Assembly (NCBI RefSeq): GCF_000247605.1
Contig: NC_016894.1
Location: 2,655,732 to 2,719,731 of the forward strand
Reading direction: 5' to 3'
Source of the DNA: Acetobacterium woodii DSM 1030
GTDB taxonomy: Bacteria; Bacillota; Clostridia; Eubacteriales; Eubacteriaceae
DNA: 64,000 nucleotides
The translations under genes and the position numbers were made by a program. Shown in pieces: positions 16,525-63,803 of the stretch. Position 1 is the stretch's first letter; each line of letters begins with the position of its first letter. A model generated the notes under the pieces. That model worked only from the letters and a program-made list of their open reading frames with translations, did not search any database and was not told the DNA's origin.

Positions 16525-16695
16525 TAGGTAATTGCAAAAGTGCCATGAGCTTTGGGCCCAGTTTCGCACGAAACAATTTCTACACGGTACGGCGGACAGT
16601 TCGATGAACTGTTCGCCTACACGTTACGAAATCGTTTGTGGAAACTGCACCCAAAGCAACTGTTGTTTGATTTTTTTTAATTTCGCAATTACCTA
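16525..16695 (+). repeat. Family A palindromic element, copy 1 (171 bp)
   Basis: The element runs from TAGGTAATTGC to GCAATTACCTA and is a nested palindrome: outer arms TAGGTAATTGC / GCAATTACCTA, inner arms CTTTGGG / CCCAAAG bounding a 107-bp core (16550-16656), and a central palindrome around GGACAGTTCGATGAACTGTT. Two other copies are at 42845-43015 and 63633-63803. It has no coding capacity and can fold into one long hairpin, so it is MITE- or REP-like. Here the core reads GGGCCC on the left. Confidence 0.92.
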
Positions 16696-16828
16696 TTAAC
16701 CAATTGTAATCGTATAACTACCGCTATATTAAGAGTATAACATATTTCAACTTATTAATAGGTAAAATATTGCTATTTCTGGTACTATTCTGTATGATCT
16801 TCAACTTTGTCGTTTTAAAAATCTTTGC

Positions 16829-23838: not shown

Positions 23839-23876
23839 AAATCAACTTTAAATAATTGTCAAGACTTAAAACAAAA

Positions 23877-23896
23877 AGAACCTCAATTGAGGTTCT
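23877..23896 (-). terminator. Terminator hairpin with T-run, distal copy flanking family B element
   Basis: AGAACCTC / GAGGTTCT stem with an AATT centre, followed on the minus strand by TTTTGTTTT. It is nearly identical to the hairpin at 24075-24094 on the other side of the family B element. This one keeps the T-run, so it is probably the original terminator of the chemoreceptor gene. Confidence 0.8.
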
Positions 23897-24074
23897 CGAG
23901 GTTGCCAATAAACGACCGTACCGACCAATTGTTAATCTGTTGTATGCACGCAATTCGGACAGTTGCAATTAAAGATTTGGCTAATGAAAGCTTTTTCGTG
24001 GCAACTGTTCGCCTTGAGGCACACAACATGATCGAACAATTGTCGGTCCTCCGTTATCTTTTTTGACAGTCTGA
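23897..24074 (-). repeat. Family B palindromic element, copy 1 (178 bp)
   Basis: An imperfect long palindrome: the left part ACCGACCAATTGTTAATC mirrors the right part ending GAACAATTGTCGGT, with further matching inside (GACAGTTGC / GCAACTGTT). A second copy of exactly the same length lies at 55815-55992. No coding capacity. Both copies are oriented the same way and both sit between a duplicated terminator hairpin. Confidence 0.9.
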
Positions 24075-24094
24075 AGAACCTCAATTGCGGTTCT
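24075..24094 (-). terminator. Terminator hairpin, gene-proximal copy flanking family B element
   Basis: Stem AGAACCGCAATTGAGGTTCT (minus strand) two bases after the chemoreceptor stop. It lacks a T-run because the family B element follows directly. It differs from its partner at 23877-23896 by one base. Confidence 0.75.
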
Positions 24095-24096
24095 CA

Positions 24097-42844: not shown

Positions 42845-43015
42845 TAGGTAATTGCGAAACTGCCATGAGCTTTGGGTGCAGTTTCCACAAACGATTTCGT
42901 AACGTGTAGGCGAACAGTTCATCGAACTGTCCGCCGTACAGTGTAGAAATTGTTTCGTGCGAAACTGGGCCCAAAGCAACCGTTGTTCGATGTCTTTTAA
43001 TTTCGCAAACGCCTA
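42845..43015 (+). repeat. Family A palindromic element, copy 2, core inverted relative to arms
   Basis: Same 171-bp length and same outer arms in the same orientation as copy 1 (left GCCATGAGCTTTGGG, right CCCAAAGCAAC), but the 107-bp core (42870-42976) is the reverse complement of the copy 1 core, with about one mismatch. So GGGCCC is on the right here and on the left in copy 1. Confidence 0.92.
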
Positions 43016-55690: not shown

Positions 55691-55790
55691 CATTATTTTT
55701 TCCCATTGTCAATTTTCATTTCAGCAGTTATGAGACTGTCTACTACAACGAAAAACTTAAATTATAAATCTAACTTGATGACCTTAAAAA

Positions 55791-55814
55791 AGTCCCGGCA
55801 AAATTACCGAGACT
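55791..55814 (-). terminator. Terminator hairpin with T-run, distal copy flanking family B element
   Basis: Stem AGTCTCGG...CCGGGACT around AATTTTG, followed on the minus strand by TTTTTT. Near-identical to 55993-56016. Confidence 0.8.
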
Positions 55815-55992
55815 TGAGGTTGTCAATAAACAACCGTACCGACCAATTGTTAATCTGTTGTATGCACGCAATTCGGACAGTTGCAATTAAATTTTGGGCT
55901 GGAGATAGCCTTTTCGCTGCAACTGTTCTCCTTGAGGCACACAACATGATCGAACAATTGTCGGTACTAGGTTATCTTTTTTGACAGTCTGA
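55815..55992 (-). repeat. Family B palindromic element, copy 2 (178 bp)
   Basis: Same length, orientation and sequence (mostly identical; the least conserved part is the central 25 bp) as 23897-24074. Flanked by a pair of terminator hairpins whose sequence differs completely from the pair around copy 1. Confidence 0.9.
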
Positions 55993-56016
55993 AGTCCCGG
56001 CAAAATTGCCGGGACT
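55993..56016 (-). terminator. Terminator hairpin, gene-proximal copy flanking family B element
   Basis: Stem AGTCCCGGCAATTTTGCCGGGACT lying 14 bases after the stop of the 104-residue gene; no T-run follows because the family B element begins there. Confidence 0.75.
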
Positions 56017-56030
56017 TCAGGTTTAATACT

Positions 56031-63480: not shown

Positions 63481-63632
63481 AAGTAGTATATGCCATAACT
63501 TTTACTTTGTCAATTAATTGTATCTCAGCGCAGGCCGTATAAAAGCAATTTCCATTATTCTTCAAAAAACATCTAATCCTGCCCTTGACTCTCCCCGTGC
63601 CGGAGCATTTATACTTCAAATTGTAATAAAAA

Positions 63633-63803
63633 TAGGTAATTACGAAATAAAAAAACATCGAACAGTGGTTGCTTTGGGTTCAGTTTCCACAAACAATTTC
63701 GTAACGTGTAGGCGAACAGTTCATCGAACTGTCCGCCGTACCGTGTAGAATTTGTTTCGTGCGAAACTGGGCCCAAAGCTCACGGCATTTTCGCAATTGC
63801 CTA
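63633..63803 (-). repeat. Family A palindromic element, copy 3 (171 bp)
   Basis: The whole element is in the opposite orientation to copy 1 but with the same internal arrangement: its reverse complement matches copy 1 arms and core alike (core 63672-63778). It ends 26 bp before the start of an ABC ATPase gene, inside that gene's likely promoter or leader. Confidence 0.9.

Follow-up and report, generated by a model that had tools for sequence, protein, structure and literature searches.

In Acetobacterium woodii, a 176-bp MITE is flanked on each side by a copy of a local stem-loop, and similar duplications flank copies of the same element elsewhere in the genus as well as a clade of IS1182-family insertion sequences (ISs). 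We observed duplication of the stem-loop, empty sites with one hairpin copy, a tip in common with the IS, like behavior across the IS clade, mixed orientation and sites at gene ends. The reading that we favor, with a probability of roughly 0.87, is that the element is a MITE of an IS1182-family IS, the DDE transposase of which would duplicate the entire stem-loop by joining at the feet of the hairpin. An earlier note on a 64,000-nucleotide stretch of the A. woodii DSM 1030 chromosome (hereafter, the window) had proposed from two loci an element that both targets and duplicates hairpins; this main point is supported, and the phenomenon is real and general beyond the two window sites.

The element in the window and in the genus

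At the first site, the MITE occupies positions 23898..24073 (plus strand) between a left stem-loop copy at 23876..23897 and a right copy at 24074..24095 (neither assigned a strand), which form a 22-nt duplication with a single mismatch; the right tip, when reverse-complemented, reads CAGACTGTCAAAAAAG, as in the IS1182-family IS described below. At the second site, the MITE (55816..55991, plus strand) separates stem-loop copies at 55790..55815 and 55992..56017 (again without strand), a 26-nt duplication with two mismatches; as read from the sequence, the two changes in the left copy would give G-U wobble pairs on a minus-strand transcript. This second hairpin pair was also recovered by an independent analysis. 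The placement between near-identical hairpins described in the earlier note was thus confirmed at both loci, with an element length of 176 bp in place of the 178 bp given there. The statement that the hairpins are local and not part of the element also stands, because they differ among the copies that carry a duplication. At both sites, a mechanical call of open reading frames (ORFs) places the right-hand neighbor on the minus strand, at distances of 1 and 404 nt, and therefore the left hairpin is the distal copy. An A-run upstream of this copy, equivalent to a T-run on the minus strand, makes it terminator-like for the minus-strand gene at the right, and the observation that only the distal hairpin retains its T-run holds at both sites.

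The element is short, forms a long imperfect hairpin, contains no transposase gene and has the inverted-repeat structure of a MITE. Its inner core (CGTACC...GGTACT), better conserved than the tips, forms a single long hairpin. One of the helices occurs in the alternative paired versions TTTGC/GCAAA, TCTGC/GCAGA, GTTGC/GCAAC and TCCGC/GCGGA; the two commonest versions of this helix (20 and 10 of 71 copies) hold mismatches, and RNAalifold identified changes on both sides at just 5 of 30 pairs. We make no claim of an RNA function for the core. A search with Rfam gave no match in the window, and a search of eight loci with a lax threshold returned two weak matches (mir-268 and U12), neither of them at the element.

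Matches to the element, some of them weak, were present in all 19 Acetobacterium genomes examined, that of A. woodii included, and absent from all 42 genomes examined outside the genus. The inner-core pattern was detected in 16 of the 19 genomes, at 3 to 102 places each, and the reversed pattern in none. Across the genus, the core is near-invariant, the tips and the apical hairpin are variable, and elements of approximately 142, 176, 232 and 251 bp occur (L050-L086, L119-L128). Clusters of core copies in congeners, which were examined as possible IS ends, proved to be mostly complete MITEs.

Geometry of the MITE duplications and the empty sites

BLAST of the A. woodii genome (4.04 Mb, one contig) produced 43 match rows, three of which were the palindrome read in reverse or a fragment, leaving 40 copies of the 176-bp element; tip patterns revealed five more partial copies. 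Copies with a recognizable core and loosely matching tips were scored for a direct repeat that abuts the element, allowing 3 nt of slack; five of the 40 own-genome copies (L024, L036-L039) fell outside this scoring. A score of at least 8 was reached by 36 of the 64 scorable copies (25 of 38 rows in A. woodii and 11 of 26 rows in congeners), compared with 0 of 300 random placements at equal spacing, which attained a maximum of 5.2. Site-specific duplications, which the earlier note expected at all further copies, are therefore present at these 36, and the remaining 28 show no clear duplication. The matching repeat is nearly always a local stem-loop, and printing out the flanks made evident that the hairpin sequence changes from copy to copy.

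For the geometry, we used the 34 copies whose repeat is 15 nt or longer, after L061 and L071 were dropped. The duplications measure 15-28 nt (mean 23.5), and in 30 of the 34 the repeat is centered on the dyad of the hairpin within 1 nt. Repeat length correlates with the span of the G:C-closed stem at r = 0.43 (n = 34), or 0.69 (n = 30) following removal by hand of four odd sites (L025, L028, L035 and L072); an earlier measure of span that extended into the flanking A/T tracts, at which the later MITE rule stops, had given r = 0.16. Shorter hairpins have longer overhangs. Pairing across the repeat (positions 0-8, with the better copy taken) is 0.62-0.79, versus 0.35-0.41 at 3-6 nt outside, and is lower inside the repeat than in the IS clade. 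The moderate correlation, the longer overhangs on shorter hairpins and the lower pairing together suggest that the MITE duplications may have a preference for about 24 nt; old copies may also have decayed. A duplication of 20-24 bp, as proposed originally, did not survive the larger sample, in which length varies with the hairpin, from 15 to 28 nt at the 34 MITE sites and from 18 to 64 nt in the parent clade.

By the mechanical ORF call, the genes around the 34 sites are convergent in 15 cases, tandem in 9 and 10 (the two directions) and divergent in none, which indicates that the MITE is inserted at gene ends without a fixed orientation; the common orientation relative to the gene that had been noticed earlier is true of the two window sites and does not extend to the whole set. 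An A-run upstream or a T-run downstream accompanies 29 of the 34 sites.

The orthologues of the 23.9-kb site include two, in G003 and G008, with one hairpin and no element. In G005, G010 and G018 (and, more faintly, in G001 and G002), one hairpin is accompanied by a short relic of the left part of the element, and eight other loci were unreadable across the site. These left-end relics beside a single hairpin (L130-L132, L135, L136) suggest that internal deletion, and not clean excision, may have removed some MITE copies. A separate orthologue query covered six A. woodii sites, four of which were evaluated (L012, the upstream gene of which is not shared, and L007 were left out). Element-free orthologues of these four carry one copy of a hairpin in every case (L011, 6/6; L004, 3/3; L013, 1/1; L015, 4/4), most of them being anchored on one side only, several by the upstream gene. 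At several sites, the orthologous hairpin has diverged from that of A. woodii, and a second, unrelated hairpin lies nearby in 4 of 6 orthologues of L011 and 3 of 4 of L015. The earlier note had reasoned that tandem hairpins already standing at empty sites would speak against insertion; an identical hairpin twice in tandem was seen at none of the element-free orthologous sites examined, and those that could be read have the hairpin in one copy each.

A candidate parent and its IS1182 clade

A search of the 19 genus genomes with an IS1182 model gave matches in 17, with 10 over the cut-off, and one subgroup among them fits the MITE. In this subgroup, an IS of Acetobacterium wieringae (G012) is 1.49 kb long, starts with CAGACTGTCAAAAAAG, ends with CTTTGACAGTCTG and sits between two copies of a 22-nt stem-loop. 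Its transposase scores 362.6 bits against NF033551 (IS1182; cut-off 270) and also matches the Pfam models DUF772, DDE_Tnp_1_6 and DDE_Tnp_1; D145, D272 and E399 are among the invariant columns of 13 aligned transposases, and we read them as the putative catalytic residues. The right tip of the MITE, when reverse-complemented, is identical to the first 16 nt of this IS, and the left tip is only partly similar. Additionally, the right tip of a MITE in G016 (reverse complement AGACTGTAGACAAAG) agrees with the end of a member of the IS clade, L267, over the 11 nt printed there. The IS copies in G008 and G014 are likewise bordered by a stem-loop on each side, an A/T-rich palindrome in G008 and a pair that has diverged in G014. 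Among six congeners searched for the site of the G012 insertion, G018 gave no match, and the five that hold the site (G008, G001, G005, G010 and G003) all have one hairpin; the flank matches overlap by 21 nt in G008, G001 and G003, which is about the size of the duplication.

We did not find an intact cognate IS in the A. woodii genome. The nearest piece is a tip-less fragment that is 50% identical over 197 residues, and the two complete IS1182 elements present in that genome (536 aa) belong to another subgroup. From the sequence comparisons, we infer that the 176-bp element is a MITE of an IS1182-family IS and that this IS or a close relative would have moved it. The autonomous parent with matching ends that the earlier note called for is thus likely an IS1182-family IS, as far as the right tip goes, with the left tip agreeing in part.

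Other candidates for the parent were set aside. Three-gene elements of the TnsB/TniB type (NF033594, none over the cut-off) have 6-bp duplications where these could be read, together with other ends, and ten loci of IS1634-family elements (NF033559) had no convincing matching tips. Unpaired left or right tips in the A. woodii genome came from degenerate copies, from hybrids and, in one case, from a match within a gene, and no transposase was recognized among the ORFs at two of the six unpaired-tip loci. The three-gene elements (L099-L108) are 3-kb multicopy elements in their own right, with four of five copies nearly identical in A. woodii and five nearly identical copies in G014; we read their genes as a small zinc-finger-like ORF, a TnsB-like DDE protein and an AAA ATPase.

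A scan with the A. wieringae transposase yielded 195 relatives, and the best 80, mostly from Clostridia, were taken, including the two A. wieringae copies and nine from one Chakrabartyella piscis strain. Both tips, in the form of terminal inverted repeats, were recognized at 60 of these best 80 loci; the other 20, which lacked one tip, both tips or a correctly spaced pair, remained outside the scoring. A duplicated stem-loop flanks 46 of the 60 IS copies, in agreement with the palindromic targets reported for some IS1182 members, and its length ranges over 18-41 nt, with most lengths taken, plus one duplication of 64 nt; 927 random placements in these loci all stayed below the duplication score. 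In 45 of the 46, the duplication is centered on the dyad within 1 nt, and its length correlates with hairpin span at 0.79 (Pearson) or 0.68 (Spearman), a span that counts A/T pairs and hence often exceeds the duplication, whereas the MITE rule stops at A/T tracts. Pairing is 0.91-0.96 at positions 1-7 inside the duplication and 0.70 at its edge, and falls to 0.56-0.69 at 1-2 nt and 0.33-0.42 at 3-6 nt outside; the edge is unsharp even in this clade because A/T tracts flank the stems. The A/T run typical of terminators is present at 34 of the 46 sites. Since 12 of these 46 IS sites and 5 of the 34 MITE sites lack an obvious A/T run, insertion is probably directed at the stem-loop and not at the terminator per se, and it is to this extent that the original proposal of insertion in terminators with duplication of the hairpin, otherwise supported, has to be modified.

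The duplication is absent at 14 of the 60 IS copies, two of which are cut by a contig end. Eight of the 14 (L243, L246, L249, L251, L254, L256, L258 and L263) have a different stem-loop on each side, suggesting a second event after stem-loop duplication, such as recombination between copies; for comparison, a stem-loop score this high is reached by 76 of 2000 single random 36-mers.

Mechanism, alternatives and related systems

DDE transposons usually generate short target duplications of fixed length, because the two points of attack lie on B-DNA in a rigid complex. A repeat that tracks the length of the hairpin and ends symmetrically about its dyad is hard to reconcile with cuts staggered by a constant distance in linear DNA; it fits a model in which joining takes place at the two feet of an extruded hairpin. 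In the mechanism that we propose, the DDE transposase of the IS would act on stem-loops of unrelated sequence, mostly terminator-like. In an extruded stem-loop, the two feet would be neighbors at a four-way junction regardless of stem length, and the two 3' ends of the element could be joined to both strands at the 5' feet; gap repair would then copy the entire stem-loop onto both sides. The distal copy would retain the T-run, so that the gene can keep a working stop signal and termination would presumably survive the insertion. That the target is an extruded cruciform or a single-stranded hairpin at the moment of joining seems to us somewhat probable. With similar reserve, we lean toward a broader view, in which the transposase clade recognizes DNA shape and not sequence, joins both 5' feet of an extruded stem-loop and so produces a duplication that equals the stem-loop and has no fixed length; its MITEs would have multiplied in Acetobacterium (up to 102 core copies in one genome), with terminators serving as landing sites that repair themselves and suffer no harm.

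Ordinary DDE transposition into linear duplex DNA, with a stagger of about 24 bp, a preference for A/T-flanked terminators and an incidental hairpin, would account for the clustering of MITE duplications at 22-26 nt and for their moderate correlation with the hairpin; we regard it as quite improbable, because the duplicated sequences vary between sites and the lengths in the parent clade, centered on the dyad as they are, spread from 18 to 41 nt and reach 64. It is hardly credible that tandem terminators came first, with the element merely lying between them, or that the element brings flanking hairpins of its own: some empty sites do have an unrelated second hairpin close by, and eight IS copies lie between two different hairpins, but the duplicated hairpins differ among copies, and the element-free orthologous sites examined hold one copy.

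Two further alternatives concern the agent rather than the target. A structured RNA could be copied into terminators by a reverse transcriptase, in a target-primed manner, with offset nicks giving rise to the duplication. The inner core is in line with such a route, as it folds into a long hairpin, has changed less than the tips and contains some paired changes, but there is no clear bias toward 5' truncation (of 40 own-genome copies, 7 are missing the first 10 nt and 5 stop short of position 170 of 181), and a DDE insertion sequence with a matching tip produces these same duplications; we find this route very improbable. A separate, unseen transposase that has only the tip in common might also move the MITE, the IS1182 element being a cousin and not the driver. 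The close match at the right tip only and the missing intact cognate IS in A. woodii speak for this, whereas the occurrence of the same tip with the same unusual hairpin duplication within one genus, and the 11-nt agreement between the G016 MITE and L267, speak against it, and we judge it unlikely.

Structured bacterial MITEs, such as bcr1 of the Bacillus cereus group, are short, palindromic and multicopy and have a predicted RNA structure. The window element resembles them in being short and palindromic, in its many copies and in its predicted RNA structure, and differs by its stem-loop duplication; we know of no such duplication for bcr1 and like MITEs. Group IIC introns also insert beside terminator hairpins, a likeness in targeting, but they are ribozyme retroelements and, as generally understood, leave no target duplication.

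The nearest known systems are IS1272 and TnSha1 of staphylococci, IS1182-family elements whose targets are stem-loops of unrelated sequence (PMC5678879, PMC4923244). According to these reports, several TnSha1 targets are terminators confirmed by RNA-seq, and both orientations occur at one target (PMC4923244, PMC5678879); with IS1272 and TnSha1, the hairpin is deleted or replaced and the target is not duplicated (PMC5678879, PMC4923244). Transposase family and stem-loop targets are thus the same, whereas here the whole hairpin is duplicated and the replacement of the IS1272 type was not encountered. In 2017, duplication through attack on the 5' feet was sketched as no more than an alternative pathway (Fig. 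13, pathway b; PMC5678879). The duplication described here supplies the missing outcome of pathway b; searches of open-access text turned up no account of an IS1182 element that duplicates an entire stem-loop.

Long duplications are also characteristic of the long-TSD subgroup of the IS1202 family, which has TSDs of 16-28 bp, with one length listed per IS, and a TnsB-like transposase; in the portion of the source available, no hairpin target is reported, and ISAjo2-type outer ends read 5'-TGT..ACA-3' (PMC10132070). Our elements share the long duplications and differ in their IS1182 transposase, variable duplication and hairpin target, which place them outside this subgroup as it is described there.

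A duplication that tracks whichever hairpin was hit makes structure-directed transposition directly testable. The outcome mirrors that of IS1272, and the two form a natural pair, one deleting and the other duplicating, for asking what decides which foot is attacked. That the gene keeps its terminator may explain how a repeat can build up to about 100 copies without harm.

Two other observations concern neighboring repeats. The window contains a second repeat family of approximately 173 bp with the ends TAGGTAATTGCGAAA, at 16525-16697, 42845-43015 and 63631-63803; its three copies are flanked by duplications of 7-9 nt and not by hairpins, and it is probably an ordinary MITE of another transposase. 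Elsewhere in the A. woodii genome, two hybrids, L040 (position 1732295) and L045 (3228217), join the left half of the 176-bp element to the other repeat family and the reverse, and from their sequences they look like reciprocal products of a rearrangement through nested repeats.
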